Source: a virus. From it: DNA of 20,546 nt. A program made the translations under genes and the position numbers. Positions within the stretch are counted from its first letter, which is position 1. Every line of letters begins with the position of its first letter. Under the pieces are notes generated by a model, which worked only from the letters and a program-made list of their open reading frames with translations, was not told the origin of the DNA and did not search any database. This document shows positions 5,218 to 20,546 of this stretch, one piece after another. The stretch is taken from the IMG/VR virus record IMGVR_UViG_3300034198_014802, positions 1 to 20,546 of that record, one strand, 5' to 3'.

Positions 5218-6276
5218 ATGAAGATATTAAATCCAAATACTACATCACTGTGCGTACATTGTTACAAACATATTTCCGCTAGAACTATTATCGAAAATGG
5301 CAGTGTTTTTTTAGAAAAAACATGCCCTTTGCATGGTTTTCAAAAGTTTTTGGTAGAACCAAATGCCGATTTTTACACCGATTATATATATGGACAAAAT
5401 AATTTATATCACACCTTGGACGCTATTTGCCTAGATATTACAAATAGATGCAATTTACAATGTCCTCATTGTTATCAAATACCTAATAACCAAAGTAAAG
5501 ATCCTAGTATAAATTCAATTATAGCTGGAGTAGAACAATGGCCTGATCAAAAAGCAGTAGTTTTAATGGGAGCTGAACCTACAATACGCAATGATCTTCC
5601 TGAACTTATAGATAGATTAAATAAGATAGCAATTAGGCCGATAATGATATTATCTAATGGGGTAAGAATGTCAGATATCGAATATGCTAAACAATTCACT
5701 AAATTTAAGAACGTGTATTTTACTATTGGTTTAAATCATCCTGACTATCAGGGACCAACCGTACGCTATAAACAAGAGTGTGGCCTAGACAATTGTGTTA
5801 AATTAAATATACCGATTAAAAATATCAGTTATACACTTGATGGATTTGGCCAATTAGAGTATTGTTTACATGAAATACAAAAATTTAATAGTGAAAAAAA
5901 TTATTGTAAAATGTATCGAATAAGGGTAGGTACTGCGATCGGTAGAAGTCCTGAACAAGATAAAATGTTTATGAGCGAATTGGTCGAAAAAAGTCGTTAC
6001 ATAGCGAAACAGAATAATTGGAGTTTCATACCTAAACCTGAATCGGGTATTAGAGCGCATTATCCAGTAGAGATTGCTGGAGTGCGTGTAAAACTAATTC
6101 AATGGCCAGACGCCCAAACATTAGATTTAGATGAAATTCAAACTGAATCTTGGGCAGATATGTTGCCTGGAAAACCGATAAGTCCGTTAGTGCATCAAGT
6201 TTTATTAAGGGATAGATTAGTAAACAATAACCAACCGCTATTAGATACTGTGCCAAAAAAATATAGGTTACAATGA
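5218..6276 (+). CDS. Radical SAM enzyme with N-terminal zinc-ribbon, Tes/MJ0619-like
   Basis: This 352-residue protein opens with a rubredoxin/zinc-ribbon-like module: C12-V-H-C15, then GSVFLEKTCPLHG with C36 and H39. This is the N-terminal pattern I know from the radical SAM family that includes archaeal tetraether lipid synthase (Tes) and the MJ0619-type pterin C-methyltransferase. The radical SAM core follows: DITNRCNLQCPHC with the CxxxCxxC cluster ligands C78, C82 and C85, and GAEP (118-121) in place of GGEP. It lacks the long C-terminal extension of full Tes proteins. It generates the 5'-deoxyadenosyl radical, with the target unknown. Its stop overlaps the start of the next radical SAM gene (ATGA), so the two are translationally coupled. 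Confidence 0.8.
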   Translation: MKILNPNTTSLCVHCYKHISARTIIENGSVFLEKTCPLHGFQKFLVEPNADFYTDYIYGQNNLYHTLDAICLDITNRCNLQCPHCYQIPNNQSKDPSINSIIAGVEQWPDQKAVVLMGAEPTIRNDLPELIDRLNKIAIRPIMILSNGVRMSDIEYAKQFTKFKNVYFTIGLNHPDYQGPTVRYKQECGLDNCVKLNIPIKNISYTLDGFGQLEYCLHEIQKFNSEKNYCKMYRIRVGTAIGRSPEQDKMFMSELVEKSRYIAKQNNWSFIPKPESGIRAHYPVEIAGVRVKLIQWPDAQTLDLDEIQTESWADMLPGKPISPLVHQVLLRDRLVNNNQPLLDTVPKKYRLQ

Positions 6277-7736
6277 ATCACGGGTTACTATTCAGTTACA
6301 GGAAAGAGAGAGGTCATCGTGGAACCGGCGCACATCGTATCGCTACATTTTTACGCGAGCATAATTGGGATGTTGAAGTATTAGATTTTTGTTCTGAATT
6401 CACACTGGAAGAACTTAAAGAATTTGTTCGAAGCAGAGTTACAACTGATACTAAGTTCTTTGGCTTTAGTTCTTTTATCAATTGGTGGCCCAATGAGGCT
6501 AATCACTTTACGAAATATCTTAAAGAATCATACCCGAATATCGCAAAAATTCTAGGTGGGCACGGATGTTTGATTACTCCTGCAGAGAATATAGACTATT
6601 GGATTGACAGCTTCGGGGAAGTAGCTATGTTACAGTTATGTAAATATATATCTGGTAACTTAATCTTTCATACGGGATTAAACTTTGAATTAGAAAATGG
6701 AAAAAAAGTCATTAGAGCATTACATAATTTTCCTGCATGGAATCTCCCCACATATAGAAACAAACATGAAAAAAGAGATTTTTTAGAATCGTTTGAAACG
6801 CTTACTATTGAAACAAGTAGAGGTTGTAAATTTAAATGCGATTTTTGTAACTTTCCGATATTAGGAGTTAAAGAAGATTTGTCTCGTAGCTCTACGGATT
6901 TCGAAGAAGAGTTAAGGTTTAATTATAATGAATGGGGTATTAAGAATTATATCATAGCTGATGAAACATTCAATGATAGAACAGAAAAAATTGAAAAATA
7001 TTCGGCTGCTGTCGGACGATTAAACTTTAAACCATGGTTCATGGCATTCATGCGGGCAGACTTATTAATTAAACAACGAAGTTATTGGGACAAACTTGTA
7101 GAAATGGGCTTGGGTGGACATTTTTATGGAATTGAAACATTTAATCATGCAGCAGGAAAGATAATAGGTAAAGGAATGAATCCGTATATTTTAAAAGAAG
7201 GTCTAATAAATATTAGAAATTTTTTTGAGCCGCATGATATGTATAGAGGCACTATTAGTTTAATATGTGGTTTACCTAAAGAATCACCTGACACTTTTAT
7301 GGACGGTATTAACTGGTGTAAAAAAAATTGGCAAGGGCAAAGCGTTACATCATGGTACCTAGAGATACCTGAGTATAATTATAATTTACCTAATTTAAGT
7401 GAGTTTTCTAAGAACTTAGAAAAATATGGCCTTAGGAAAAAAAAAATAGACATGAAACCAAATTTTTTAAGTTTTTTTCCAGGACTTAATAATATTATTA
7501 TATGGGAACACGATAATATGAATCAACTACAAGCAATGGAAATATTAAAAAATGTTTATGATTCGATGCCTAATTATTTTAGTTGTACCGGATTTCATAC
7601 AATTACTGGATTTATAGAGTATAATACTAATAATATTGAAGATATAATTAACTATAATAAATATGACGATGACTCGGGAAATATAAATTTATTTATTCAA
7701 CGGTATAAATTAAAAAAATTAAATTGGAAAGCATGA
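6273..7736 (+). CDS. Cobalamin-binding-domain-type radical SAM enzyme (copy 1)
   Basis: The 487-residue protein has an N-terminal Rossmann-like domain (about residues 1-128) with the B12-binding-domain landmarks of B12-dependent radical SAM enzymes: GAHRIATFLREHNWDVEVLDF (19-39), KFFGFSSF (61-68), KILGGHG (92-98) and IDSFGE (111-116). The radical SAM core starts at about residue 178 with TSRGCKFKCDFC; cluster ligands are C185, C189 and C192. Enzymes of this class commonly methylate unactivated carbon or phosphorus, or act like the MiaB/BchE groups. It is closely similar to the product of 10677-12140, with equal length and identically placed cysteines. The start overlaps the upstream stop (ATGA) and its own stop overlaps the next start. 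Confidence 0.82.
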   Translation: MNHGLLFSYRKERGHRGTGAHRIATFLREHNWDVEVLDFCSEFTLEELKEFVRSRVTTDTKFFGFSSFINWWPNEANHFTKYLKESYPNIAKILGGHGCLITPAENIDYWIDSFGEVAMLQLCKYISGNLIFHTGLNFELENGKKVIRALHNFPAWNLPTYRNKHEKRDFLESFETLTIETSRGCKFKCDFCNFPILGVKEDLSRSSTDFEEELRFNYNEWGIKNYIIADETFNDRTEKIEKYSAAVGRLNFKPWFMAFMRADLLIKQRSYWDKLVEMGLGGHFYGIETFNHAAGKIIGKGMNPYILKEGLINIRNFFEPHDMYRGTISLICGLPKESPDTFMDGINWCKKNWQGQSVTSWYLEIPEYNYNLPNLSEFSKNLEKYGLRKKKIDMKPNFLSFFPGLNNIIIWEHDNMNQLQAMEILKNVYDSMPNYFSCTGFHTITGFIEYNTNNIEDIINYNKYDDDSGNINLFIQRYKLKKLNWKA

Positions 7737-8539
7737 TAAAAGGAATCAATAATCAAAAATATATAGATATGGAACCATATCTAGATATGGAAACATTTGA
7801 TAAAATTCAACCTGAAATATATAAGGGATTTGCATTGGCACGAATGTATGCTAAAGAAGGTACTTGGATGGAACCGGGTTTTACGTTTGAGGACATGAGT
7901 TATGTTCATAATTGGAAACCAATTTATCAAGCAATGCAAGATTTTTATCAGTTACCTGATGATAATCCAATTAAACAAACAGGAATGAGTATTCTTCCCA
8001 AAAATTTTAAAAATTTTCAGGAACGTAATATATTTACCCGTTATTTAAAAATGGCAATGGGAGCATACGATCCTTATATTTACTATTATTTGTGGGAAGA
8101 AGGTGATTGGGACGAGCGCCCCAGTGAGCGTCAACTTACTGAAGAAAGTAAATACTTTCCTAATCTTGTTAATTGGATTCTTAAAATGAAAGAAAATAAT
8201 ATATTTAAACACATAGGCAGAGTTATTTTCTTTCATTTAGAGCATGATGGTTTACCTTTTGAGCATAGAGATTTAGATGCCCGTAATGGATTAAATGTAG
8301 TAAAACCGCATCGTAATGAATTTATTCATGTACGACCTGATACTAGAAATCAATTATATATTTGGGATCCAAAAAAGAAAATGAAATATGGAATAAACAC
8401 TCGGGCTGCATGGTGGAACGATGTTGACTGGCATGGCGGAAACAAAGTAATGGCACAGACATATGGATTAAGAATAGACGGCAAGTTTACGGATGAATTT
8501 CGTAAAATATTAGGCGTTAATCATTTAACGTCGTATTAA
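7733..8539 (+). CDS. 2OG-Fe(II) oxygenase-type protein, 268 residues
   Basis: The best start is the ATG at 7733, which overlaps the previous stop as ATGA with GGAAA just upstream; a TTG at 7724 is in frame but less likely. The C-terminal half has HxD at H178-R-D180 (PFEHRDLD), a long insert containing HVRPDTRNQLYIWDP (199-213), the distal ligand H234 in DVDWHGGN, and R247 in TYGLRIDG as likely 2-oxoglutarate anchor. The roughly 150-residue N-terminal half is not recognised. It is the longest of the oxygenases here and immediately follows a B12-type radical SAM gene, so it may act on the same substrate. Hydroxylation is inferred from the motif. Confidence 0.68.
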   Translation: MIKGINNQKYIDMEPYLDMETFDKIQPEIYKGFALARMYAKEGTWMEPGFTFEDMSYVHNWKPIYQAMQDFYQLPDDNPIKQTGMSILPKNFKNFQERNIFTRYLKMAMGAYDPYIYYYLWEEGDWDERPSERQLTEESKYFPNLVNWILKMKENNIFKHIGRVIFFHLEHDGLPFEHRDLDARNGLNVVKPHRNEFIHVRPDTRNQLYIWDPKKKMKYGINTRAAWWNDVDWHGGNKVMAQTYGLRIDGKFTDEFRKILGVNHLTSY

Positions 8540-8540
8540 T

Positions 8541-9053
8541 ATGAAATATATTGGAAACTATAGAGATTGGATTAAACCTGAATTCATTGAATTCCTAGAC
8601 AACAATCAGGGTGAAACACATCCTAGAGTTGATCCTGCAGAATATGGTTCAGGCAACTCCATGGAAAAAATTCGTCAGTACGGATATGATATAGATAATA
8701 GTATTTTTTGGTACAGCTTTGAACGCAGAACATTACCATTCAATGTCATATTACCATTTGATTTGGGTGGCACAAATGATTGGTGGTTTGTTAAAATGAA
8801 ATGTGGAAACTTTATACCTTTTCATCGTGACCACGCACCTAAAAACGAATGTGAGGGCATGACTGCTAGAAGGTTTTGGATGCCATTACAAGACTATGTT
8901 GAAGGCCATGTGTTTATCATGGAAGATAAATTGTATACTGGATATAAAGCCGGTGATGTGTTTGAATATTTAGAAGACGGGGGCAGGCACGGAGCCTTTA
9001 ATATAAGTATGGGTATACCTAGATATACTTTTAATTTTCAATTTTATCTATAA
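8541..9053 (+). CDS. 2OG-Fe(II) oxygenase-type protein, tandem copy 1
   Basis: The 170-residue protein shows HxD at H95-R-D97 (FIPFHRDH), the strand-rich segment MPLQDYVEGHVFIMED, the YKAGDVFE turn, distal H150 (GGRHGAFN), and R161 in IPRYTFNF as 2-oxoglutarate anchor. It is clearly paralogous to the next gene (shared DWIKPE/EWITPE start, LQDYVxGHVF, YKAGD[VI]FE) and more distantly to the product of 10109-10675. It begins one base after the previous stop and ends where the next begins, so it is part of the 5218-10128 operon. Confidence 0.75.
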   Translation: MKYIGNYRDWIKPEFIEFLDNNQGETHPRVDPAEYGSGNSMEKIRQYGYDIDNSIFWYSFERRTLPFNVILPFDLGGTNDWWFVKMKCGNFIPFHRDHAPKNECEGMTARRFWMPLQDYVEGHVFIMEDKLYTGYKAGDVFEYLEDGGRHGAFNISMGIPRYTFNFQFYL

Positions 9054-9578
9054 ATGTTTAAATTTATTAAAAACGACAAAGAATGGATTACTCCTGAACT
9101 AATGAATCACTTGGCATCAACTGCCGGTGATAAAATTCCGGTATGGCAACCTAAAAGATGGGTTGGACACCCCTTATTGGATAAATTTAGAGAAGATGCA
9201 AGACCTTTCTTTGAGAAAGAAACCCCATACTTTCAGCAGTATAATAATAATAGTGTTGATATGAAAAACTTTCCTATTGTATTGCCTGAGCTGCCAAAGA
9301 AAAGAGCTAAATGTCAGTATTGGTTTATTAAATTATTGCCAGGACAGATGCAAACAATGCACATTGACCCGCACTTAGTTGATGTACAAAACTCGGTGAG
9401 ATATTCAATGTTTTTACAAGATTATGTTCCAGGACATGTATTTGTGTTTGACGATTTTCTTGCTGCTAATTATAAAGCAGGAGATATATTTGAATGGAGT
9501 GATCCTGAATGTGCCCATGCATGCGTTAACGTTAGTTACACTGTTAGATATACTTTACAGATAACATTACATGACTAA
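9054..9578 (+). CDS. 2OG-Fe(II) oxygenase-type protein, tandem copy 2
   Basis: The 174-residue paralogue of the preceding gene has HxD at H103-I-D105 (TMHIDPH), LQDYVPGHVFVFDD, YKAGDIFEW, distal H155 in CAHACVN and R165 in TVRYTLQ. The start ATG directly follows the previous stop codon (TAAATG), and the last eight bases overlap the SDR-like gene. Tandem duplication with divergence suggests that the two hydroxylate different positions or substrates. Confidence 0.75.
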   Translation: MFKFIKNDKEWITPELMNHLASTAGDKIPVWQPKRWVGHPLLDKFREDARPFFEKETPYFQQYNNNSVDMKNFPIVLPELPKKRAKCQYWFIKLLPGQMQTMHIDPHLVDVQNSVRYSMFLQDYVPGHVFVFDDFLAANYKAGDIFEWSDPECAHACVNVSYTVRYTLQITLHD

Positions 9579-10128
9579 GATTATTTGTACTGGCAATCCT
9601 GCACACGGTGGCATCGCAAAGAGTTTGCAAAAATATTACCCTGATACTAAGTTTATTAGTAAAAATTTGGGGTTTGATCTAACATCCGACTCGGATTATT
9701 TTAACTTCTTAGAGATTGCTAAAGAGTATGATGTGTTCATCAATCATTCACAGATTTACATGGGATTTCAGGAAAAAGCTCTAAATGACGTATACAATTT
9801 ATGGACTCGGGGCCATATAATAACTATTGGATCTGTGTTAGAGTTTGACGAATGGCGTAAATTAGATACGATCACTAGCAATGAGAAACTTTCTACACGA
9901 AACCGTAGTCTGATATTGTCTAGTGAAAATATAAAAACCACTCATTTAATAACAAGTGGTTTTCAGCGCTACGGTCTTGAATCAGATATTAAGATTGACC
10001 CAGATGATATAATCTATACTATCAGTTTTGTTCTTAACTCTACCTTAGACTTTCCGTTAATATATGTAGATAAAATAGATGATATCAGATTTAAAAAATG
10101 GAGAAATATTATAAACGAGTTGCCTTGA
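9571..10128 (+). CDS. Short-chain dehydrogenase-like (SDR) protein lacking the catalytic Tyr
   Basis: The 185-residue protein starts with a Rossmann strand and glycine-rich turn, IICTGNPAHGGIAKSL (4-19), comparable to the TGxxxGIG of SDR enzymes. It then has the conserved-looking YDVFINHS (53-60, cf. D-x-x-x-N-x-A), a helix ending LW (77-78), and HIITIGS (82-88), which carries the usual catalytic Ser position. The YxxxK motif should end at K106, but the residue at position 102 is Thr, not Tyr. It is also shorter than typical SDRs (about 230-250 residues). It may bind NAD(P) without classical dehydrogenase activity. The gene overlaps the preceding oxygenase by 8 bp and the convergent oxygenase gene by 20 bp. 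Confidence 0.55.
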   Translation: MTKIICTGNPAHGGIAKSLQKYYPDTKFISKNLGFDLTSDSDYFNFLEIAKEYDVFINHSQIYMGFQEKALNDVYNLWTRGHIITIGSVLEFDEWRKLDTITSNEKLSTRNRSLILSSENIKTTHLITSGFQRYGLESDIKIDPDDIIYTISFVLNSTLDFPLIYVDKIDDIRFKKWRNIINELP

Positions 10129-10675
10129 GATGGTACATATACTTAGGTTCTAATCCTACATTTGCTCCGCAGTGCCAATCATGGTAGCTATTCCATTCAA
10201 TTATTGTGCCGTGTTTCATATTGATAAAGTAGTCTTCTTGTCCGAGGTGTTCTTTGCCTAAGATAAAGATATGCCCAAGTTTACTGTCCCCCAAGAATAC
10301 ACTGAATCGTAATGCGTTTTCTTCTTCTTCGACATCATCTTCAACGTCCCAATGCCATGGGGCAGAATACCCCGGGTCAATTCTACTAAGCCAAGACCTA
10401 CGATACTTTACATTTAGATATTTACATAATGTTCTATCAATCTCTTCCTCAGAATAATGTTGTCCTGGATAGTAATTAATCCACTTAATAGCTGACCTTA
10501 GATAATTAGCTTTTTCCCATCTATTTAAAATTTTAGTGTAATCAGGAACTTCCATTCTCCAAATTGATGGATCTGTTGTAATAGGTATTCCTTCTAGATT
10601 CTTAACACTTTCTAACAACTCTCCCCAATCAATTGGAATATAAATATTTACAAATTTTGCATTTATTGGATTCAT
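10109..10675 (-). CDS. 2OG-Fe(II) oxygenase-type protein with Lys in place of the usual Arg
   Basis: The 188-residue protein has HxD at H108-W-D110 (SAPWHWD), an acidic loop DVEEEENA (114-121), the strand GHIFILG (134-140), and distal H168 in HDWHCGAN. Where the tandem oxygenases at 8541-9578 have IPRYTF or TVRYTL, this one has EPKYMY, so K178 sits at the 2-oxoglutarate-anchoring position. Lys is known there in some members of the superfamily. It lies one base after the stop of the B12-type radical SAM gene upstream on the minus strand, so it is its operon partner. Its 3' end overlaps the opposing SDR-like gene. Confidence 0.7.
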   Translation of the reverse strand: MNPINAKFVNIYIPIDWGELLESVKNLEGIPITTDPSIWRMEVPDYTKILNRWEKANYLRSAIKWINYYPGQHYSEEEIDRTLCKYLNVKYRRSWLSRIDPGYSAPWHWDVEDDVEEEENALRFSVFLGDSKLGHIFILGKEHLGQEDYFINMKHGTIIEWNSYHDWHCGANVGLEPKYMYHLKATRL

Positions 10676-10676
10676 A

Positions 10677-12140
10677 TTATCTTCCTAATTTCTTTTGTTT
10701 ATACCATTCGAGAAACGGCTGTCCTTCAACTACTAGTTCAGCCAAAATTTTTCTGCCTTCTGTGGCAGAATTGTCTCTCCACCACATTCGTTCTTCATAG
10801 TAGTACCATAACTTATGTGCTTCAAAAATGTCCATTGTATCATGTTTCCATACGACTTCAGACCGTGGAGTAACGCCATACTCTGGAAAAATTCCCTGTG
10901 AAGGATCCATATCGTATGACAAAGGCACGCCGGTTTCTATCGAACGCCTAATGGCTTCTTCTTTTGACATTTCTGTATATCCATATTTTTTAAAATCTGC
11001 TGCCATGCCGCTTGGAGGATTACAATATTCTTTTGTATAAATCGTAAGAGGTTGCATTGCTATTGCTTGATCTGTCCAGTTTTCTAAAAACCAATTCATG
11101 GTATTTTCTAATGACTCATGAGTTTCGTGTACTAATCCTATTATAATTCCTGTGGAACCAACATATCTATCCCCTACATTTTTTACGAAAAAATCTCTGA
11201 CATCTTTTAATCCTTGTTTTATTTTTTCAGGATTAGAACCCTTATGAATAGATTTTGACGATTCCGCATTAAAAGTCTCAATGCCGTAATAATGATTTAG
11301 GCAATTCATTCTTAACAACTCTTCTCTATCTCTGGGTCTGTTGATTAATAAGTCAGCTCGTATTAAAGCGCCAAATTTGGGTTTAAAATTTAATTTTTCA
11401 ACAACATCCGCAAATAAGGCCACCTTATCTACATTGTCGTTAAATGTAGAATCTATAATATTAAATTTAGTAATTCCCCATTTATCATACGCACTTCTAA
11501 GCTGATAATCAAAATCTTCCTGTGTTCGAGCAGTCTGTCCTTTAACTCCTAAAATAGGGTAACTACAAAAATCACATTTAAAAATGCATCCTCTAGAATT
11601 TTCTATAGCTACCCATTCATCGGGCTGTATATAATCTGATTCTTCATATTCAATTAAAATTTCATTACAGGGATATGCTGGATAGGAGTTTAATGCATCT
11701 ATTATTTTTTTTTTTGTAGAAAGGTTAAGGTCAAATTTAGGACGAGGGCCGTTTGAAAAAAGATATTTTAAAAGTACCTTTAAAGCCTCTTCTCCATATC
11801 CACTTATATAATAGTCTAAATAATCAGAATTATATGTAGGTTGTGCAGGCGCGCCTGCAATAAGGTAAATACTTGGCCATTTTGTTTTTATATGTTTGCA
11901 AAGTTCTTCCATTTCCGGTGTCCAACTAGCAAAACACTGACTAAATCCTATAAATTTAGTATTAGAAGTTACATTCAAGTTTACAAACTCTTTGAGTTCT
12001 TTCGCAGTCCACATGTGTGTAAAATCTAGTACTTCGGTTGCCCAACCTAGTTGTCTTAGAACTGTAGCAATTCTATAACATCCGGCATGCCTAGTATAGG
12101 CATGTCTTATTACAACATTAATAATAAGACAATGATTCAT
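10677..12140 (-). CDS. Cobalamin-binding-domain-type radical SAM enzyme (copy 2)
   Basis: The 487-residue paralogue of the 6273-7736 product has exactly the same length and the same cluster positions: C185, C189 and C192 in NSRGCIFKCDFC, followed by PILGVK in both. The N-terminal B12-type Rossmann domain is recognisable: RIATVLRQLGWATEVLDF (23-40), KFIGFSQCF (62-70), YLIAGAPA (92-99) and ISGYGEEAL (112-120). Shared core blocks include ADLLIN and YGIETFN. The C-terminal third differs most from copy 1, fitting a different substrate. Its start overlaps the upstream kinase-fold-like gene by ATGA, and its stop is one base from the downstream oxygenase gene. Carbon methylation is plausible but unproven. 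Confidence 0.82.
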   Translation of the reverse strand: MNHCLIINVVIRHAYTRHAGCYRIATVLRQLGWATEVLDFTHMWTAKELKEFVNLNVTSNTKFIGFSQCFASWTPEMEELCKHIKTKWPSIYLIAGAPAQPTYNSDYLDYYISGYGEEALKVLLKYLFSNGPRPKFDLNLSTKKKIIDALNSYPAYPCNEILIEYEESDYIQPDEWVAIENSRGCIFKCDFCSYPILGVKGQTARTQEDFDYQLRSAYDKWGITKFNIIDSTFNDNVDKVALFADVVEKLNFKPKFGALIRADLLINRPRDREELLRMNCLNHYYGIETFNAESSKSIHKGSNPEKIKQGLKDVRDFFVKNVGDRYVGSTGIIIGLVHETHESLENTMNWFLENWTDQAIAMQPLTIYTKEYCNPPSGMAADFKKYGYTEMSKEEAIRRSIETGVPLSYDMDPSQGIFPEYGVTPRSEVVWKHDTMDIFEAHKLWYYYEERMWWRDNSATEGRKILAELVVEGQPFLEWYKQKKLGR

Positions 12141-12820
12141 AGACCCTCTAACGCATTGTAAAATTTAGGAAGAGGGTCACTCGGCCATTTAATCCAAAAT
12201 TTCATAGAGTTTTTAAAATGGTCCGCCATTTTATAATAATCACCAATTTTAACTTCGGCGAATCTGTGTTGAGAATCAACTCCAATAATTGGTTCTATTA
12301 AATTTTTATGTATAATAGAATCATTTTTTTCGATTGTTGCATAATAATCTAACATTTTTAACTGTCCTGTTTTAGAATAAAAAAAACAATGTGGATATAC
12401 AGATGATTTATAATATCCTAATTCATATATATCTTTTATTATTTCGAATAAATCTTCTTTCCAATTTGGATATTCACTATCTATCGATCTACCGAATTCG
12501 TAAACTGGCCAGTTTAAGCTTTCTTTATTAAATTCTATTAGAATTTTTTTTTCAGATTCGTCAACGTCATATATGATCGGACACCATTTTTTTTCTTGAA
12601 AAAGAGTCAAATATTTTAATTCTCTATAAAAAAATGTTGTCATTAAATCATCGTTGCGATCAACACAACTGTCATTCATATATATTTCTGAATCAACTGT
12701 AAAATGCAAACAAAGTTTATTTTTTTCTAAATTTGTAGTTGGTGTATATAAAACATTTGTTGAACATGGATAGCCATTGGTTAATTTATATACGAATGTC
12801 CAATTATTATTGTCAATCAT
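12137..12820 (-). CDS. Kinase-fold-like protein, probably degenerate (paralogue of 4486-5175)
   Basis: This 227-residue protein resembles the 4486-5175 product along its length: TNVLYTP strand (21-27), DSE (43-45), YRE helix (65-67), EKKILIEF strand (90-97), NWKEDLFEIIKD helix (119-130), GYYKSSVYP (135-143) and GQLKMLDYY (152-160). Here the DFG-like site keeps its Asp (D158) but the catalytic-loop Asp is missing, as in the paralogue. Kinase-like ancestry is inferred from the pattern alone. A good ribosome-binding site, AAGGACT, lies about six bases upstream of the ATG. Its stop overlaps the start of the B12-type radical SAM gene (ATGA), so the two proteins are probably made together and may interact. 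Confidence 0.45.
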   Translation of the reverse strand: MIDNNNWTFVYKLTNGYPCSTNVLYTPTTNLEKNKLCLHFTVDSEIYMNDSCVDRNDDLMTTFFYRELKYLTLFQEKKWCPIIYDVDESEKKILIEFNKESLNWPVYEFGRSIDSEYPNWKEDLFEIIKDIYELGYYKSSVYPHCFFYSKTGQLKMLDYYATIEKNDSIIHKNLIEPIIGVDSQHRFAEVKIGDYYKMADHFKNSMKFWIKWPSDPLPKFYNALEGL

Positions 12821-12829
12821 TAATAGTCC

Positions 12830-13501
12830 TTATAATATTACGATATAAAAATTACTTGGTAAGCATTTTTTTAATTCTTCTAAATAATATTTATTTATAG
12901 TAAAAGTAACTGAATTTTCGGTTGGATAAAAATTTGATAATATTCCTTCCTTATTATACCTATTTAGTAAACTACTTATGGCATTATCAAATATAAATCT
13001 ATTTTCAAAAATATCATTTACTTTACTCAAAATTGATATTTTAATGGGATTTATGACATTATTAAGTAATAATAGTTTTCTTACCACTAATTGAATTCTA
13101 TCATGATATCCTACATTAATAGCAGTATGTCTTGGTCCTGCATTAAAATCGTACCAATAGCCGTCATTATTTAATTTATACAGTATTTCATCATCTAAGT
13201 TAATTATATAAGAAGAGTCTCCTTGTATATTAAGATGATATCTATCATCGATGTCTGCATGACTTTGATAGCAAACGCCGTATTTTAGATTAATTAATCT
13301 GGTCTCACCTATAGAATATGGTAGTGTTTTTAATATTTCGTCCCAAACAGTGTTTTTATATTCATCTTTTATTTTCCAAGGATCATAAAAAAAATTTCCT
13401 GTAGGGTTATTTATTGGTGTTTTAAATGCATCAAATGCAAATTCTTTTTTAGCCCTATATAACATGTCATTTGATATATAATGTTCAGTCCGATTCATCA
13501 T
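12830..13501 (-). CDS. 2OG-Fe(II) oxygenase, Asp/Asn beta-hydroxylase-like, with C-terminal extension
   Basis: The 223-residue protein has HxD at H81-A-D83 in CYQSHADIDDRYHL, distal H125 in GPRHTAINV, and R135 in YHDRIQLVV, the compact arrangement of Asp/Asn beta-hydroxylase-type cupins. After the cupin core (ending near residue 142) there is an extra 80-residue C-terminal region rich in Asn, Ile and Phe that is not recognised. It is the first gene of the minus-strand unit 13501-10109. Two adjacent ATG codons (13501 and 13498) precede it; the T4-late-like box at 13504-13511 would initiate at the second. No Shine-Dalgarno is visible. Confidence 0.72.
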   Translation of the reverse strand: MMNRTEHYISNDMLYRAKKEFAFDAFKTPINNPTGNFFYDPWKIKDEYKNTVWDEILKTLPYSIGETRLINLKYGVCYQSHADIDDRYHLNIQGDSSYIINLDDEILYKLNNDGYWYDFNAGPRHTAINVGYHDRIQLVVRKLLLLNNVINPIKISILSKVNDIFENRFIFDNAISSLLNRYNKEGILSNFYPTENSVTFTINKYYLEELKKCLPSNFYIVIL

Positions 13502-13503
13502 AA

Positions 13504-13511
13504 TATTTATG
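13504..13511 (-). promoter_or_regulatory. T4-late-like promoter box (CATAAATA), minus strand
   Basis: On the minus strand CATAAATA ends two bases before the ATG at 13501. T4-type spacing puts the first transcribed base at 13498, the A of the second in-frame ATG, giving a leaderless message for the hydroxylase gene. Confidence 0.45.
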
Positions 13512-13525
13512 TGAGATTATCATTT

Positions 13526-13533
13526 AATAAATA
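13526..13533 (+). promoter_or_regulatory. T4-late-like promoter box (AATAAATA), plus strand
   Basis: AATAAATA ends five bases before the ATG at 13539, so T4-type initiation falls exactly on the start codon. There is no Shine-Dalgarno. It diverges from the minus-strand box at 13504-13511. Confidence 0.45.
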
Positions 13534-13538
13534 AACTA

Positions 13539-14240
13539 ATGCAGATACCCTTTTCTTCTTCTTGGAAAAAAATAGCTATTAGTCTTAGTGGAGGAGCAGA
13601 CAGTGCTTTATTAGCTTATTTATTATGTCAACAAATAACTTCTCAAGAATTGCATATAATAAGTCATATACGGTGTTGGAAAACAAAACCATGGCAGCAA
13701 CAAAATAGTTTAGATGTATATAATTGGTTAAAAAATAGGTTTCCTAATATTATTTTTTATAGACACACTAATTTTATTCCACCTGAAATGGAATGGGGAG
13801 ATAAGGGTCCTACTATGATAGATGAATATGGAAAACAAGTTAGTGGGGATAATATAGAACTACGAGCATTTGCGGAGTACCTATGTGTATCTAATAATAT
13901 AGATAGCTATTATAATGCGGTTACCCGTAACCCAATAGGTACTGAATTTCACGGTATGCCTACACGAGATATTGAACCAACTGAAAATAATAAACACTTA
14001 GTAGAGATGAATCATATGGGAGTTGCTGCAATACATCCTTTTAGATTTACACAGAAAAATTATATTATTAAAGAATATTATAGATTAGGTATTGTCGATT
14101 TATTAGATATAACACGTAGTTGTGAAGGTACTTTTTCAAATATAACATACAAAAATTACAAACCAGGACAGTATGTTCCATTATGTAATAATTGTTTTTG
14201 GTGTAAAGAGCGAGAGTGGGCAATTAATGAATCAAAGTAA
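13539..14240 (+). CDS. PP-loop ATPase, QueC-like
   Basis: The 233-residue protein has the PP-loop SGGADS (17-22) near its N-terminus, the signature of N-type ATP pyrophosphatases that adenylate a carbonyl oxygen before amide or nitrile formation. The C-terminal end carries a four-Cys site, C195 (TRSCEG) and C216, C219, C222 (CNNCFWC), spaced like the zinc site of 7-cyano-7-deazaguanine synthase QueC. Length also fits QueC. QueD, QueE and GTP cyclohydrolase are not visible in the window, so preQ0 synthesis is not supported by context, and a different acid substrate is possible. The gene overlaps the following radical SAM gene by 14 bp, suggesting tight functional coupling. Confidence 0.7.
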   Translation: MQIPFSSSWKKIAISLSGGADSALLAYLLCQQITSQELHIISHIRCWKTKPWQQQNSLDVYNWLKNRFPNIIFYRHTNFIPPEMEWGDKGPTMIDEYGKQVSGDNIELRAFAEYLCVSNNIDSYYNAVTRNPIGTEFHGMPTRDIEPTENNKHLVEMNHMGVAAIHPFRFTQKNYIIKEYYRLGIVDLLDITRSCEGTFSNITYKNYKPGQYVPLCNNCFWCKEREWAINESK

Positions 14241-15489
14241 AACGTTTTGTATGCATCCTTTTACAGGATTAGCAACGCGAGAAGATGGGGCAATTAAAGT
14301 TTGCTGCCGAAGCCACTCAATAGGGTTCATCAATGAAGATTCATTAGAAGATGTTTGGAACAATGATTCGATGAAACGAATTCGTAATCAAGTATTGAAT
14401 AATCAGCGCCCTCCGGAATGTGAACCATGTTTTAGTTTAGAAGACCAAGGAGTAGAAAGTCTTCGTCAGCGTCATATTAGAGGTCTTATACCTGAAGCCA
14501 GAATAAATCTGTATCCAAATGCGCTTGAAAAGTTAAATGAAGATTATTCAATGCCGTTTGAGATTCCTACAATGGAGATAAAACTTAACAACTTGTGTAA
14601 TTTAAAATGCCGTATGTGTAACCCATTGGACAGTACTAACTGGACAGACTGGAATGTAGTCGTACCATTTTATGAAAAGGAAAATAACTTTTTAGTTCCT
14701 ACAATTCAGGGTTTAGTAGACAAACCCGGCAAGTACATAGGTGCATTTGATGATACAGACAATTGGTGGAATAGTTTTGAAAAGTTATTGCCGCATTTTA
14801 GACGAGTAGAGTTTGCAGGTGGTGAACCATTAATGGATCCACAACATTACAAAATTTTAGATATGCTTAAGCCATATGGCAAGAATATAGAAATTAAATA
14901 TGCTACTAATGGCACAACACTGGGCATTAGTCGAGGAAGAACTATACATGATTATTGGCCACATTTTAGATCAATTGCAGTTAACGTTAGTGTTGACGGC
15001 ATTCATGATGTTTATAATTACATACGAGGTAATGGCAATTTTAATCAACTTGAAGAAAATATTAAAGAAATAAAAAATATACAAAATGTCAGTAGAGTGG
15101 TAGGCGCATTTACGGCACAAGCTGGTAATATTCTACAAGCTGCGGAATGTATCGATTACTTTATTAACACAATGGGCATTGTGTTTTATAGTCATCGTGT
15201 TAGTTACCCTAACTGTTTATCAGCACAAGTACTGCCCGTTGACCTAAAGGCCATGGCTATTACAAATTTGCAAACAGTTAAGACACAGATTGACAACTGG
15301 GATCTAATTAAAAAGAATACATTGTTGAGAAAAGTGACACACCAGCAAATACAAGATAATATTAACTACTTGCAGGCCAAAGATCAAAGCAACTTGTGGC
15401 AAGATTTTTTAGATTTTAACTTTGCGTTGGATAATACACGTGGGCAAAATTTATTAAAAGTAATTCCAAAATTTAAACCATATGTTTAA
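14227..15489 (+). CDS. Radical SAM protein with N-terminal SPASM/twitch-like module (A type, copy 1)
   Basis: I place the start at the ATG at 14227 (MNQSKTFCMHPF), because the ATG at 14173 would add 18 residues entirely inside the preceding gene. The 420-residue protein begins with an auxiliary-cluster-like module, C8, C26-C27, C65 and C68 (FCMHPFTGL...VCC...CEPC), placed before rather than after the radical SAM core. The core follows with LNNLCNLKCRMC (C124, C128, C131) and FAGGEPL (197-202). Proteins of this build are annotated in aquatic phages as twitch-domain radical SAM proteins. SPASM/twitch enzymes usually modify peptides, although other substrates occur. Paralogous to the product of 17324-18736. 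It overlaps the next gene by 8 bp. Confidence 0.8.
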   Translation: MNQSKTFCMHPFTGLATREDGAIKVCCRSHSIGFINEDSLEDVWNNDSMKRIRNQVLNNQRPPECEPCFSLEDQGVESLRQRHIRGLIPEARINLYPNALEKLNEDYSMPFEIPTMEIKLNNLCNLKCRMCNPLDSTNWTDWNVVVPFYEKENNFLVPTIQGLVDKPGKYIGAFDDTDNWWNSFEKLLPHFRRVEFAGGEPLMDPQHYKILDMLKPYGKNIEIKYATNGTTLGISRGRTIHDYWPHFRSIAVNVSVDGIHDVYNYIRGNGNFNQLEENIKEIKNIQNVSRVVGAFTAQAGNILQAAECIDYFINTMGIVFYSHRVSYPNCLSAQVLPVDLKAMAITNLQTVKTQIDNWDLIKKNTLLRKVTHQQIQDNINYLQAKDQSNLWQDFLDFNFALDNTRGQNLLKVIPKFKPYV

Positions 15490-16369
15490 GATTACTGGAA
15501 GGTGGCCTCATCAACACACCATTAAAATTGAATGGAATCTAGGCAAACGCTGTAACTATGACTGTAGTTATTGTCCAACAAGTATACATGATAACTATAG
15601 TCCACATACTAATATAGAAATTCTTAAATTAACTGTAGACAGGTTAACAAAATTAGGTAAGCCTATACGTCTTAGTTTTACTGGTGGCGAACCGTGCGTA
15701 CATCCTAAGTTTCGAGAGTTAGTGAAATATTGTAAACAAGTTGGTATTATTTGGATAAGTGTAACAACTAACGGAACATTGCCGTATGAATTTTATTCAG
15801 CGTTAGAAGTAGATCAAATTGTTTTTAGTATACATTTAGAATTCGACTGGAAACTAGTTTTTGATACAGTAGAAAGTATTGCCAATTCGACGAATAAGAA
15901 AGTCATAGCGCAGATTATGGCACATGATGATTATATGGATGCGGCTAGAGAATTACGTACCAAATGTTTATTGACAAAAATCCCTAATACTGTTCGACGC
16001 ATACGTTGGACCGAAGGAGATCATGACTTATTCGATGATATGCGTTATAATATAAACGATTTGGTATGGCTTAAATCACAAGAAGCTACGGTAGAAGGAA
16101 ATTGCATCATGGACGACGAAACTATTATTCATGCTAATGATGTAATCAAACTACATTTTAACAAATATAAAGATTGGACGTGTAACGCTGGTATAGAAAG
16201 CCTAATGATAAATTGGGACGGAGATGTACACAGGGCGACTTGTAGAGTCGGAGGTAGTTTAGGCAATATTTACAAAGGCAACTTCATTGCGCCCAGTGAA
16301 CCAGTAATATGTGATCGTAATTTCTGTACTTGTGCAGCCGATATTCCTTTGACTAAATTTTCCACTTAG
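15482..16369 (+). CDS. Radical SAM protein with C-terminal Cys-rich (SPASM/twitch-like) tail (B type, copy 1)
   Basis: The 295-residue protein has its core cluster at C24, C28 and C31 (GKRCNYDCSYC) and TGGEP (67-71). The C-terminal part contains C234 (WTCNAGIESL), C254, then C277, C282 and C284 in a CxxxxCxC ending followed by about eleven residues. This looks like binding of at least one auxiliary FeS cluster. The same C-terminal design is seen in the 16353-17327 product, with which it is paralogous. It overlaps the preceding A-type gene by 8 bp and its last 17 bp overlap the convergent paralogue. Probably works with the A-type partner. Confidence 0.8.
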   Translation: MFKITGRWPHQHTIKIEWNLGKRCNYDCSYCPTSIHDNYSPHTNIEILKLTVDRLTKLGKPIRLSFTGGEPCVHPKFRELVKYCKQVGIIWISVTTNGTLPYEFYSALEVDQIVFSIHLEFDWKLVFDTVESIANSTNKKVIAQIMAHDDYMDAARELRTKCLLTKIPNTVRRIRWTEGDHDLFDDMRYNINDLVWLKSQEATVEGNCIMDDETIIHANDVIKLHFNKYKDWTCNAGIESLMINWDGDVHRATCRVGGSLGNIYKGNFIAPSEPVICDRNFCTCAADIPLTKFST

Positions 16370-17327
16370 TCATTAATATTTCGGGCTGGCACCAACATTT
16401 AGGTTTTTCACAAACTGTAGGAATCAATTTAGGGTTAAATTTATCTATAAATTTGGGATCATATATATTATAATAATCTTTTTCATCAAACGTTTTATTA
16501 TCGCATACTCCGGTTAATTTGCCGTCTGCTTTAATATTAAGATTTTCAATACCAATATTGCACATCCATCCTTCAAAATTATTTAAATCATTGACAGAAA
16601 AATAATTTCGTTCAACTTTCTCTTTTGAACCATCATCAAAGATTACTGTAGTTTTTCCTTTTAGTATATTTTCGTATTCATCTTTAATAAGTCTATGAAT
16701 AGGCGGCATACGTTTAACATGTTTTTTAAATATTTCTCGTTGTTCTTGGGTATATCTTGAAGGATTAATCTCCATAGCGTTTATGAACCATGAATTTTGA
16801 CTAGTAGCTTTCATTATATCCATAGCCGCAATTATTTCATCCCAGTAATTAGGATCCATCATTACAAGTGCGTTTAACGGAATATCTTTATCATATACTA
16901 TATCTAATACATTTATATAATGTTTGAGATCAGCCTCTGCATAATGGTAGCTAAATAAAATATTATCAAAAGCATCAGCATTTTCATCCCACCAGCGAAG
17001 TGTTCTACTCCCGTTAGAAGTCATAGTTATTTTTACATTGTATTCTAATTTCATAATCCTTGAAAATTTTACAATGTCTGGCCATAAGCTCGGCTCGCCA
17101 CCAAGTATATTTATTTCAAACTTGTCTCTGCCATTGCGTACATAAAAATCTAGTAAGTGTCTAAAATGTTTAACTAGCATATCAAAATCTTTTGGCCAGC
17201 GTACATCACCGCCGTTTGCATATGGGCCACAATATGAACATTTATAATTACAAAAATTTCCTGCCATGTATTCAATACGCAGACGCTTCTTGGGCTCCAT
17301 TGTTTCTATTTTAATTATTTTTTTCAT
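16353..17327 (-). CDS. Radical SAM protein with C-terminal Cys-rich (SPASM/twitch-like) tail (B type, copy 2)
   Basis: The 324-residue protein has core ligands C26, C30 and C33 (GNFCNYKCSYC), GGEP at 76-79, a WMCNIGIENLNI block matching WTCNAGIESLMI of copy 1, and an identical C-terminal Cys pattern: C306, C311 and C313 (CxxxxCxC), then eleven residues. It carries an insertion before the WMC block (PSRYTQEQREIF to FDDGSKEKV) relative to copy 1. Its ATG overlaps the TGA of the A-type gene upstream (ATGA), so A and B are coupled as in the mirrored pair at 14227-16369. Confidence 0.8.
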   Translation of the reverse strand: MKKIIKIETMEPKKRLRIEYMAGNFCNYKCSYCGPYANGGDVRWPKDFDMLVKHFRHLLDFYVRNGRDKFEINILGGEPSLWPDIVKFSRIMKLEYNVKITMTSNGSRTLRWWDENADAFDNILFSYHYAEADLKHYINVLDIVYDKDIPLNALVMMDPNYWDEIIAAMDIMKATSQNSWFINAMEINPSRYTQEQREIFKKHVKRMPPIHRLIKDEYENILKGKTTVIFDDGSKEKVERNYFSVNDLNNFEGWMCNIGIENLNIKADGKLTGVCDNKTFDEKDYYNIYDPKFIDKFNPKLIPTVCEKPKCWCQPEILMTKWKI

Positions 17328-18736
17328 ATTAGGTGACTTAGTTCCGGAAATGTAGTTTTAAAATTTGTATTACGAGTTTGGTCCATAATATTAATATATT
17401 CTTTAAAAGCAGGTAAAAGATGTGAGTGATCTTCACTATCCATAAAATTTAATATTGCTTGCCAACGTTTCCAACCATATGGATTATGATACCAAAAATT
17501 GTCATCCTGTCTATAATTATTCCATAGCCAAGTTTTAAACTCTGCATAAATTTCTCTTACTTCTTGTTTGTCGACCTCAGGTAATATTTTGATACTTAAA
17601 AATGTAGGGATATAAACAAAGTGCATATTAAATATTCCTCCACCTGCGTCCGATTCGTCCATAACCGTTGCTTTATTTATTTTTTTAAAATTCTTTTGGA
17701 TTTTCCATTTAGCAAATTCGGGTAATTTTTTCACATTTAAAATTTGAATGGCAGTAGCAATGCTTACTTCAATATTGTCCTGTGTGTTATCTAGTATATT
17801 AAGTTTTTCTTCTACGATATTCCACTCTGTTGGGTATCTAATGTAATAATTCCTGTCACCAAACATGTCCTGACTACATGCAAACTTTATTTTTTTGAAT
17901 TTTTTCCACAACTCAATTATGCTGTCATCTAATAATAACCCATTTGAATTATATCTAATTAAAATTTTATCGGCATGTCCTTGACGAATAATTTCCTCTA
18001 AGAACATTTTATGTTCTTTGATCATCAATGGTTCTCCGCCAGCAAAATATACTTGCTTTAAATTAGGAATCTGAGCATATATTTCCTTCCAAAATATTGG
18101 ATTCTCGTGCCAGTAATTATCAAATGACTCTTCATTCCAACTTAGTTGAGACTTGACACGGTCGTCTTTAAATATTGGAAATACTTTTTTGTAGTCTTGT
18201 ACCCATCTGCTGGAGTCATGAGGACTGCACATGATACATTTAATATTACAATTATGACCTAATCTAAGATCCAGATACATTAATTTTTCAGGAACGGCTC
18301 CGTCTGTTTTAGTTTGTGCAATTATTTTTTCAATGTCTAAGCCATCTTGTATCCAAGTACCGGTTTCCCACATTCTTTTACTGGCTACCCCGTTTGATTC
18401 TTCATCAAAACATTTAGTACAACTTCGAGGAATCCCCCCATTAAGCATCGTTGTTCTAACTGAGCGCATATAACTATTGTTCCAAGCCTGCATGGGAGTT
18501 TCTTTGCCGAAGTTAGCAGGTCGTCCGGTTTCGTTTTTTACTAGTCCAATTTCATGATCTGAACCAGCGCCACTGGAATTAGACCCACAGCATAAGCGCA
18601 TGTCGCCGTTGGGCCTAGTAGCAAAGTGAATCCATGGTAATATGCAAAATGTTGCACTTCCTGATATATCGGTTACCTTACGTTGCCACTTGCCCAATAA
18701 ATTATCTTTTGGTTGTAACCAATATAAATTATTCAT
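17324..18736 (-). CDS. Radical SAM protein with N-terminal SPASM/twitch-like module (A type, copy 2)
   Basis: The 470-residue protein has the N-terminal auxiliary module C31 (FCILPWIHFATRPNG), C49-C50, and C106, C109 (SCTKC), matching copy 1 at 14227-15489. Its radical SAM cluster is C163, C167 and C170 (LGHNCNIKCIMC), with FAGGEPL at 231-237. It is about 50 residues longer than copy 1, partly through an N-terminal extension (residues 1-28). A usable ribosome-binding site, AGGAA, lies upstream of the ATG at 18736. The start overlaps the stop of a 16-codon ORF (TAATG). Followed by its B-type partner through an ATGA overlap. Confidence 0.8.
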   Translation of the reverse strand: MNNLYWLQPKDNLLGKWQRKVTDISGSATFCILPWIHFATRPNGDMRLCCGSNSSGAGSDHEIGLVKNETGRPANFGKETPMQAWNNSYMRSVRTTMLNGGIPRSCTKCFDEESNGVASKRMWETGTWIQDGLDIEKIIAQTKTDGAVPEKLMYLDLRLGHNCNIKCIMCSPHDSSRWVQDYKKVFPIFKDDRVKSQLSWNEESFDNYWHENPIFWKEIYAQIPNLKQVYFAGGEPLMIKEHKMFLEEIIRQGHADKILIRYNSNGLLLDDSIIELWKKFKKIKFACSQDMFGDRNYYIRYPTEWNIVEEKLNILDNTQDNIEVSIATAIQILNVKKLPEFAKWKIQKNFKKINKATVMDESDAGGGIFNMHFVYIPTFLSIKILPEVDKQEVREIYAEFKTWLWNNYRQDDNFWYHNPYGWKRWQAILNFMDSEDHSHLLPAFKEYINIMDQTRNTNFKTTFPELSHLI

Positions 18737-18786
18737 TAGTTTGATTCCTGTGTTGAGACAATTCGTATTGGGAAAATTTGTGACAT
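18736..18786 (-). CDS. Possible 16-residue leader peptide before a radical SAM gene
   Basis: In the 58-bp gap between two radical SAM genes, an ATG at 18786 opens a 16-codon frame, MSQIFPIRIVSTQESN, whose TAA shares its last A with the next start codon (TAATG). The same TAATG coupling joins the genes at 19880. It has only A-rich sequence, no clear Shine-Dalgarno, upstream. It may be a translational coupler, a small peptide substrate or chance. Confidence 0.3.
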   Translation of the reverse strand: MSQIFPIRIVSTQESN

Positions 18787-18794
18787 TTTTTATA

Positions 18795-19880
18795 TTAATT
18801 CAATTTTACAATAGCTGATTGTTGATCTATAGATTTACTAAATTCATCTGCCTTGCCCCTACCGCATGTTCGTGTGCATGTAATAAATTTATCATGATTC
18901 CAATAATTATCCCAAATAGTATGATATTTCTCGCTACTTAAAATATCTTTGATGCTACGGTGTATAGCATTCATATTTTTTACGCCACCTAACTTATCCA
19001 TCATGGAATAATATTGGTTGACCATGGTCTGTCGTATCGAGGCCACAGCATCATTTTCAATGTATGTGTAAGGTATATGAGCTATCCAACAGCATGGCAT
19101 TACTGTTTTATATGCATCTATGTATATTTCTTTGGTGTGTAATACTTGACAATCGATTGTACTATTGACCATATAGTCATTGATATTATCTATTACTTTT
19201 TTATCAATGAATTTGATAGGAGTATCAGAAGCTGGCTCAATGATATGAATATTCTCACCCTTTTTATTGAGTACTTGTATTTTTGGTTCTAGTAAAAATC
19301 TAGAACTATTTTTAAAGGTGAATTGAGCAAATTTAAATTCTTTTGCCCTGCGCTGTGCTTCTTCTAATTGATGTTCATTGTGTTTGAAACGAATAAAGCA
19401 CCATTCAGCAATGCCACCTGCATTAATAAAAGCTTTGGCATTGCGTAATACTATTTCATAATTAGTTCCAATTCTGTATAAATTATGTGTATCTTCTAAA
19501 CCATCAATGGCAAATATTACTCGATGATTTTTGGGTAGAACTTTTGCCAACTTTTGCCACCACTCAATTTTTCTTGCGCCACCATTGGTGTGAAATCTTA
19601 TGTGGAGATTATTATTAATATTGACACTATAGTCAATCATGTCTAACACATCATCATTCATCATCGGATCGCCAAAATTGCCGCAAAAATAAAACCCGCG
19701 TAGTTGTCTCAAGACCTCTTCATTTAATATTTGTTTGAATTCTTCTAAAGTCCAATCAGATGTGGATAGTAAGGGGTTATCAGGTCCTCCTCTAATATTT
19801 CTATTACACATTGGGCAGCTAGCCTGACAATTATTAGAAATTTCTAAATGAATATCATTTAATTCGTTAAAATTAAACAT
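18795..19880 (-). CDS. Radical SAM protein with SPASM-like C-terminal region
   Basis: The 361-residue protein has its cluster at C18, C22 and C25 (ISNNCQASCPMC), then CGNFGDP (66-72) in place of the GGEP loop, as in other SPASM-type proteins acting on peptides or amino acids. The C-terminal half contains DCQVLHTKE, MPCCWIAH and a final CTRTCGRG, supplying five further Cys, enough for one or more auxiliary clusters. It is not close to the A or B types elsewhere in the window. The start shares a base with the stop of the methyltransferase gene (TAATG), with AGGA about eight bases upstream, so the two are translationally coupled. Substrate unknown. Confidence 0.78.
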   Translation of the reverse strand: MFNFNELNDIHLEISNNCQASCPMCNRNIRGGPDNPLLSTSDWTLEEFKQILNEEVLRQLRGFYFCGNFGDPMMNDDVLDMIDYSVNINNNLHIRFHTNGGARKIEWWQKLAKVLPKNHRVIFAIDGLEDTHNLYRIGTNYEIVLRNAKAFINAGGIAEWCFIRFKHNEHQLEEAQRRAKEFKFAQFTFKNSSRFLLEPKIQVLNKKGENIHIIEPASDTPIKFIDKKVIDNINDYMVNSTIDCQVLHTKEIYIDAYKTVMPCCWIAHIPYTYIENDAVASIRQTMVNQYYSMMDKLGGVKNMNAIHRSIKDILSSEKYHTIWDNYWNHDKFITCTRTCGRGKADEFSKSIDQQSAIVKLN

Positions 19881-20473
19881 TATTTGTATCCTATAATCAT
19901 ATATCTATTATACAATGGTAAGGATAATTCTTCTTTAAACAATACTTTTTTTAAGTTGGATTGATCTACAAATTCTTCTACAGTGTTAGCAACTCTGATG
20001 TGTTCTGAAATTTTATAGTTATTTGATTGTAAAACTAATAAACTATTATCGGATATTTTTTTAATCCAATCATTATACTCGTTTTGTGATATATGTTCAC
20101 AGCTTGTATTTATAACGACATTTGCGGTACTAGTGACATTAATCATATTAGCGGTGATTGCTTTAAACTTTCCCTTATTTAATTCTATGTTATTCATAAT
20201 ATTTGCTATAGGCTCACATTGTGGATCAACATCAATGCTTCTAATAGTATTAACGCTAAGTTTGCTTTGAAATAACATACTAGCTAGAACACCTACCCAT
20301 CCTCCATAAATATCTATATTAACTATAGTCGGTATTAAATTTTCTAGTGTTAATATTAACCATTCTTTTGATTTAATTTGACCTGACCAAAATGCGTCCA
20401 TAGTCCTCATGGGATCATTACTTTTGCGAATCGCCTGCATCCAATAGTGAAGGTGTTCGGTATCTATTTTCAT
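19880..20473 (-). CDS. Class I SAM-dependent methyltransferase-like protein
   Basis: The 197-residue protein has a Rossmann motif I, NIDIYGGWVGVLASML (52-67), an acidic strand end RSIDVDP (78-84), the NMINV region (109-113), and VVINTSCEHI (119-128) corresponding to motif IV. This is the order expected for a small class I methyltransferase. The terminal strands (SLPLYNRYMIIGYK) also fit. No nucleic-acid-methylating NPPY or DPPY motif is present, so a small-molecule, peptide or protein substrate is more likely than DNA. The ATG directly follows the stop of the partial gene at the window edge (TAAATG); the downstream radical SAM gene is coupled. Confidence 0.65.
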   Translation of the reverse strand: MKIDTEHLHYWMQAIRKSNDPMRTMDAFWSGQIKSKEWLILTLENLIPTIVNIDIYGGWVGVLASMLFQSKLSVNTIRSIDVDPQCEPIANIMNNIELNKGKFKAITANMINVTSTANVVINTSCEHISQNEYNDWIKKISDNSLLVLQSNNYKISEHIRVANTVEEFVDQSNLKKVLFKEELSLPLYNRYMIIGYK

Positions 20474-20546
20474 TTAAATACTTATCATTTCATTATAATA
20501 TGATAACCAAACATCGGCATAACCACAATTTTTATAATTTTCAAAC
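20474..20546 (-). CDS. C-terminal end of an unknown gene cut by the window edge
   Basis: A minus-strand frame is open from the right edge to a TAA at 20474-20476, directly before the methyltransferase ATG. It encodes 23 residues with a protein-like composition, including CGYADVWLSYYNEM. The tight join to the next gene fits the operon style of the region. Too short to identify. Confidence 0.5.
   Translation of the reverse strand, partial: FENYKNCGYADVWLSYYNEMISI

Follow-up and report, generated by a model that had tools for sequence, protein, structure and literature searches.

Converging radical SAM operons in a viral enzyme island: gene-by-gene exchange as the likely source of a mirror-image gene order

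We analyzed a 20,546-base viral record from IMG/VR (IMGVR_UViG_3300034198_014802; hereafter the window, meaning this whole stretch of DNA), a fragment without structural core genes, in which two pairs of radical S-adenosylmethionine (SAM) genes run toward each other. On the plus strand, gene A (14227-15489) is followed by gene B (15482-16369), and on the minus strand gene A' (17324-18736) is followed by gene B' (16353-17327). All four open reading frames (ORFs) begin with ATG. The A/B overlap is 8 nt (15482-15489), the A'/B' overlap is 4 nt (17324-17327), and the 3' ends of B and B' share 17 nt (16353-16369). A first-pass annotation had described these four frames as a mirror-image, duplicated two-gene cassette in which both pairs are coupled by short overlaps; the coordinates, the strands and the overlaps were all confirmed.

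The four proteins passed the Pfam Radical_SAM cut-off (PF04055; 37-53 bits, cut-off 29.5), in agreement with their initial assignment. A and A' scored 319.5 and 379 bits, respectively, against the NCBIfam model NF033640 of N-terminal-twitch radical SAM (N_Twi) proteins (cut-off 170 bits), far above the cut-off and over nearly the whole model. A SPASM/twitch-like module had been proposed to precede the core of the A-type genes, and an auxiliary Fe-S module was found at residues 8-68 of A (14248-14430, plus strand; PF13186, 36.3 bits). The PF13186 match was reported for A only and not for A'; Cys 8, 27, 65 and 68 and the core motif CX3CX2C (124, 128, 131) are invariant in 45 A-type sequences including A'. 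B and B' carry the core first and then a C-terminal Cys set ending in the CX4CXC tail that had been noticed at the outset (B, residues 277-284, 16310-16333, plus strand; B', residues 306-313, 16389-16412, minus strand, from sequence and alignment). This tail is invariant in 36 B-type sequences, and PF13186 did not match the C-terminal region of B or B' at E 0.001, despite the conserved Cys set. In addition to the radical SAM core, each of the four enzymes has a further Fe-S domain.

A and A' aligned end to end (25% identity, E 3e-39), as did B and B' (24% identity, E 4e-13), whereas A and B matched only in a 38-residue patch of the core (E 7e-05). The description of the minus-strand genes as the same pair, diverged, is therefore true at the protein level. 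At the DNA level no inverted repeat was found between the pairs, the longest inverted match being 29 nt at 72%. Purifying selection was detected on all four genes (dN/dS, the ratio of nonsynonymous to synonymous substitution rates, 0.04-0.14; for A', where dS was saturated, the corresponding polymorphism ratio pN/pS was 0.09).

The two pairs are the 3' halves of converging operons, PP-A-B on the plus strand and MT-C-A'-B' on the minus strand. PP (13539-14240, plus strand), the first gene of its operon, is PP-loop ATPase-like and overlaps A by 14 nt. Its SGGADS motif and Cys-rich C-terminus are invariant in 14 homologues; against QueC (PF06508) it reached 17.3 bits, below the cut-off of 22. The gene lies directly 5' of A in most loci. 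On the minus strand, MT (19880-20473), the first listed gene of the operon, is methyltransferase-like by inspection only and matched no Pfam family above cut-off. C (18795-19880) is a further radical SAM gene (PF04055, 34.9 bits) that is conserved near A'.

To examine the conservation of this layout, each protein was used as a query against 2.9 million viral contigs; A, B and A' gave at least 80 loci each and B' gave 14, and these were reduced to 145 non-redundant loci. Relatives of B' at 83% identity occurred in three viral loci only. Of 121 non-redundant loci, 116 had B as the next family member after A on the same strand, with a typical overlap of 8 nt. A' was followed by B' in 74 of 133 loci, typically overlapping by 4 nt, and B' was absent beside A' in many loci. 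A faced A' in 103 of 113 loci; in the other 10, A' lay at the opposite side of A, the two genes being back to back. The same picture was obtained from loci recruited with PP as a neutral bait: of the 57 with both genes, 55 had A and B near each other on the same strand, and A faced A' in 41 of 49. Conserved A-B pairing, a claim of the first-pass annotation, was thus borne out. In contrast, a B-type gene followed only 4 of 118 other N_Twi genes in phages and 6 of 138 in bacteria, so the pairing is a trait of these subfamilies and not of the NF033640 family. In one locus (L281) B precedes A on one strand and in another (L289) B' precedes A', which indicates that adjacency outlives orientation. 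In a number of loci A and B are separated by a gene from a different family, mostly of about 200-330 aa. Most of these inserts have no Pfam family, including those of about 268-330 aa that occur in many loci (L144, L092, L107 and others); that of L121 is a sulfotransferase.

To find out which genes are inherited together, between-locus protein distances were compared gene against gene (rho). In the full set, rho was 0.73 for A-A' and 0.63 for B-MT, compared with 0.27 for A-B and 0.22 for A'-B'. Two allele groups of A matched the groups of A' without exception (113 loci), whereas the groups of A and B were not associated. Two closely related loci (L015 and L029) differ by 7% in A and by 41% in B, and reverse cases were also seen among close phages. 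Because rho can be biased when loci are chosen for their similarity to A, B or A', new loci were recruited with PP and MT. In these neutrally recruited loci (n=52), rho was 0.44 for A-A', 0.40 for B-MT and 0.14 for A-B, and the bootstrap intervals of the differences from A-B (0.11-0.51 and 0.08-0.43, respectively) excluded zero. Congruence of A with B, which the first-pass annotation had named as the sign of cassette inheritance, was not found, and the low A-B value, the divergence in L015/L029 and the inserts between A and B all speak against A-B as a unit of inheritance. Since A, B, A' and MT are interleaved and yet coupled crosswise, physical linkage alone is insufficient. The simplest reading of the co-variation of A with A' and of B with MT would be functional coupling.

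A comparison with another contig (L442) pointed to the way in which the genes change. L442 and the window are 98.9% identical over 18739-20546, which covers MT and C, and switch completely 3 nt before the start codon of A'. In L442 the gene after C is an intact B', and A' is found between PP and a dioxygenase-like gene, D. Still present upstream of A' in the window are the 16 opening codons of another B' gene (MSQIFPIRIVSTQESN, 18739-18786, minus strand), which are identical in 48 of 48 nt to the start of the intact B' at L442:3572, with divergence thereafter. The simplest account of this relic is a replacement in which A' together with its own B' recently displaced another B' in the window and left 16 codons behind. 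Among 228 loci, 16 ends of near-identical blocks were usable, and 44% of them lay within 10 nt of a gene end, compared with 5% of random positions (p 1.6e-5).

Phylogenetic trees were calculated for A and A' (or B and B') with other phage paralogues and bacterial relatives from 84,980 species genomes. Cellular relatives were reached through A-type sequences only, so that B-type relatives far from A-type genes are under-sampled. A and A' each formed one clade, but the two stood apart: A' grouped with Bdellovibrionia chromosomal sequences and a few phage contigs (99% support), and A with other sequences (99%). B and B' likewise stood apart. Approximately unbiased (AU) tests rejected A+A' as an exclusive clade at a cost of 84 log-likelihood units (p 3.4e-6) and B+B' at a cost of 59 (p 0.0025). 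The deep branches were weakly supported. As judged from these sequences, A and A' are two anciently separated N-terminal-twitch radical SAM subfamilies; the two subfamilies of B and B' fall within an unnamed radical SAM family that has a predicted C-terminal auxiliary cluster.

Such trees could also arise if a very old A-B pair had been duplicated long before these phages, had kept its partners for a time and had then been blurred by later exchange. Adjacent A-type and B-type genes are seen in two dissimilar subfamilies and in a small number of other paralogous pairs (L192, L116, L167), the adjacency also occurs in the swapped orders of L281 and L289, and B' groups weakly with the B-type genes of other such pairs. 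Against this history, the rarity of B-type neighbors among the other viral and bacterial N_Twi genes would require many losses, and the deep branches are poorly supported; we regard it as rather unlikely. Inverted duplication of one A-B cassette followed by divergence of both copies, as originally proposed, would explain the end-to-end homology and the mirror-symmetric order, but is very improbable and is contradicted by the trees, in which A' is closer to Bdellovibrionia chromosomal genes and A to others, by both AU tests and by the missing inverted DNA repeat, and B' is often missing beside A'. The other origin that had been offered, acquisition of the cassette on two occasions, comes nearer to the evidence, though with the genes arriving singly and not as a cassette. 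Of the earlier interpretation as a whole, the conserved A-B adjacency stands, and the cassette duplication and the A-B inheritance unit do not.

AlphaFold2 models of A and B had pLDDT values of 94.9 and 92.8, respectively. The model of B was nearest to BlsE (7vob; Z 18.4, rmsd 3.6 over 264 residues) and then to SkfB (Z 17.1), and the core of A was nearest to BlsE (13.5), SkfB (13.0) and anSME (12.8). Further structural matches were MoaA, SuiB, CteB, anSME, viperin and DesII, and EpeE, SpeY and AbmM were also listed. BlsE, SkfB, CteB, SuiB and anSME, the nearest solved folds to B and to the core of A, share a radical SAM core and an auxiliary-cluster domain with them; identity in the structural alignments is about 13-19%, and A differs in having the auxiliary module before the core.

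We consider it likely that PP-A-B and MT-C-A'-B' are converging operons of a modular enzyme island whose genes are gathered and exchanged singly, with A and A' as a co-inherited pair and B and B' as exchangeable members. The mirror image would then have been built by gathering and swapping genes one by one, with breakpoints at gene ends and without inversion-copying of a cassette, while about nine of ten loci keep A and A' facing. A and A' may work together, either in a complex or in consecutive steps on one substrate. An exchangeable step or a specificity may be contributed by B or B', in the case of B jointly with MT, and the product could be a peptide, a protein or a sugar tailored through C-H activation.

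Several points weigh against this reading. In the A'-recruited set, A-B coupling was as high as A-A' coupling (rho 0.82 and 0.84, respectively), and the coupling values are in general modest and depend on how loci are recruited. Part of the A-A' coupling could come from the lineage of the phage backbone. The direction of change between L442 and the window, with the relic in the window, was deduced from one contig pair, and the breakpoint statistic is based on 16 events. Because the window has no capsid gene of its own, it is assigned to the T4-like phages through its relatives. The putative functions follow from fold class and co-inheritance. Finally, the top structural matches fix the enzyme class, radical SAM with an auxiliary cluster, but not the substrate, since peptide-, nucleotide- and sugar-modifying enzymes score alike.

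A more specific form of the exchange reading is possible, and we put it forward only tentatively. A and A' would be the constant part, a two-component N-terminal-twitch radical SAM machine encoded on opposite strands, into which exchangeable B-type partners and the co-varying MT are plugged. Swapping of whole genes at their ends would then diversify the chemistry of a molecule of the virion or of the surface.

As to the substrate, a virion protein and a surface glycan are about equally likely as leading candidates. The enzymes may modify a structural protein of the phage or an encoded peptide, in the manner of formylglycine-type maturases or of those that process ribosomally synthesized and post-translationally modified peptides (RiPPs), a real possibility though short of a probable one. 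The nearest folds of A and B include SkfB, CteB, SuiB, anSME and EpeE, and Asp/Asn-hydroxylase-type and B12-binding radical SAM genes occur in the same window, a combination known from peptide tailoring. However, no precursor peptide was noted among the cassette ORFs of at least 50 aa, shorter ORFs not having been searched systematically, and no Pfam match to a leader-binding (RiPP recognition element, RRE) domain, a protease or an exporter was found among the window proteins tested; moreover, the fold does not fix the class of substrate.

Modification of surface glycans or nucleotide sugars, of the host envelope or of the virion, can be entertained tentatively. BlsE, a nucleotide-sugar decarboxylase, is the best structural match of both B and the core of A, and DesII, SpeY and AbmM are listed as well. 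A sulfotransferase gene lies between A and B in L121, and in pelagimyophages radical SAM gene cassettes differ between close relatives within the hypervariable host recognition cluster (PMC7029224), an island with which this one would be comparable. Against this, no glycosyltransferase was detected by Pfam among the window proteins tested, and peptide maturases score nearly as high as BlsE. It is highly unlikely that B is a nucleotide enzyme of the viperin type with a role in defence against viruses or superinfection: the closest PDB sequences of B are viperin-like (E 2e-7, 93 residues), but B and B' reached only 56.9 and 41.4 bits against the prokaryotic viperin model NF038283 (cut-off 180), and viperins are not known to have a C-terminal CX4CXC tail.

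D (12830-13501, minus strand) is a conserved neighbor that is divergent from PP. It is dioxygenase-like by inspection (HxD...H...R pattern) and had no Pfam match. T4-late-promoter-like boxes were found upstream of both genes, CATAAATA upstream of D (13504-13511, minus strand) and AATAAATA upstream of PP (13526-13533, plus strand). In 52 of 95 loci, NATAAATA was present within 100 nt upstream of D, at a position of 10-19 nt, compared with about 1% of random 100-mers, whereas a box upstream of PP was found in 12 of 86 loci. Across the whole window, the count of TATAAATA was at chance level with no excess. Of these putative promoters, only the NATAAATA box upstream of D suggests late transcription. 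The gene for the T4-type major capsid protein gp23 in cassette-carrying records has no such box of its own, which counts against late transcription.

Elsewhere in the window, two B12-binding radical SAM genes (6273-7736 and 10677-12140), on opposite strands and of 487 aa each, are 36% identical and make up a second facing pair; in neighboring loci usually one of the two is present. E2 (4486-5175) and E (12137-12820) are paralogues (27% identity) without a usable Pfam family, and each recurs next to radical SAM genes in many loci. A dioxygenase-like HxD...H pattern was seen by inspection in seven genes (2084-2743, 3354-3941, 7724-9578, 10109-10675, 12830-13501). Of these, only 2084-2743 passed the Asp_Arg_Hydrox cut-off of Pfam, and one further Asp/Asn-hydroxylase match lay below cut-off. 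The B12-binding radical SAM, hydroxylase and HxD...H genes together point to C-H activation as the general purpose of the island. Between two hydroxylase-like genes sits a small gene (2793-3341) with a weak match to DUF2793 (17.5 bits, below cut-off) and a C-terminus that is tail-fibre-like by inspection; its product is a possible structural substrate. At the edge of the window (1-546) there is a truncated frame, porin-like by inspection, and an outer membrane porin is likewise annotated in the pelagiphage HTVC008M. No Rfam or tRNA features were found in the window.

The carriers were examined in 11 large cassette-carrying viral records, each of which had 7-19 PF04055 hits. The gp23 gene (PF07068) was present in 8 of the 11, and the carriers are therefore, at least in good part, T4-like aquatic phages; among them are T4-like phages that have about 9-19 radical SAM genes each. 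The locus with B before A (L281) is on a contig in a Gammaproteobacteria metagenome-assembled genome (MAG) that has gp23 genes on three contigs, and it is probably a mis-binned T4-like phage. Islands with N_Twi, B-type, C-type, MT-like and PP-like genes also occur on contigs of Bdellovibrionia and related MAGs (L293, L294, L301, L282; one contig of 936 kb), and gp23 was not found in these genomes.

Islands with several radical SAM genes are already known from T4-like phages. TARA_ERS488813_N000010, a T4-like marine genome, has 12 radical SAM genes (PMC5332604); it resembles the carriers described here in being a T4-like aquatic phage with many such genes, and the passage on it gives gene counts only, with no mention of allele exchange, of the order of genes or of a pairing of A with B. 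The pelagimyophage host recognition cluster is likewise a hypervariable island of T4-like aquatic phages, and its site is between VrlC and the neck protein gene. Pfam models of the gp14 neck and sheath proteins, and the HTVC008M neck and baseplate proteins, had no match in the present records, which is uninformative on the position of the island. The group II Campylobacter phages CP220, CPt10 and CP21 encode 6-12 radical SAM-related proteins in exchangeable modules (PMC2853527, PMC4546147). They are T4-related, like the carriers here, and CP21 encodes a distant B-type relative; no N_Twi gene was found in the stretch of CP21 examined, and the Campylobacter phage modules are bounded by long repeats, whereas exchange here takes place at single gene ends. 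The Vibrio phages K566 and K567 have several N_Twi genes close together, but these are only about 26% identical and no B-type gene was recognised beside them. The name of NF033640 carries no function, and among its several phage subfamilies A and A' represent two. No description of the A-B/A'-B' layout, of the A-A' and B-MT coupling or of gene-end replacement with a relic was found in the literature searched, the coverage of which is incomplete; this organisation and its mode of change appear to be new.

Many aquatic T4-like phages devote a large share of their genomes to unexplained radical SAM and dioxygenase-like genes. The present analysis replaces the vague observation of many radical SAM genes by a defined and conserved unit of two operons, whose members can be tested as partners, A together with A' and B together with MT. 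The relic can be read as a molecular fossil of how such islands change, in that entire genes are swapped at their ends. Identification of the substrate would explain a widespread and uncharacterised chemistry of aquatic viruses.

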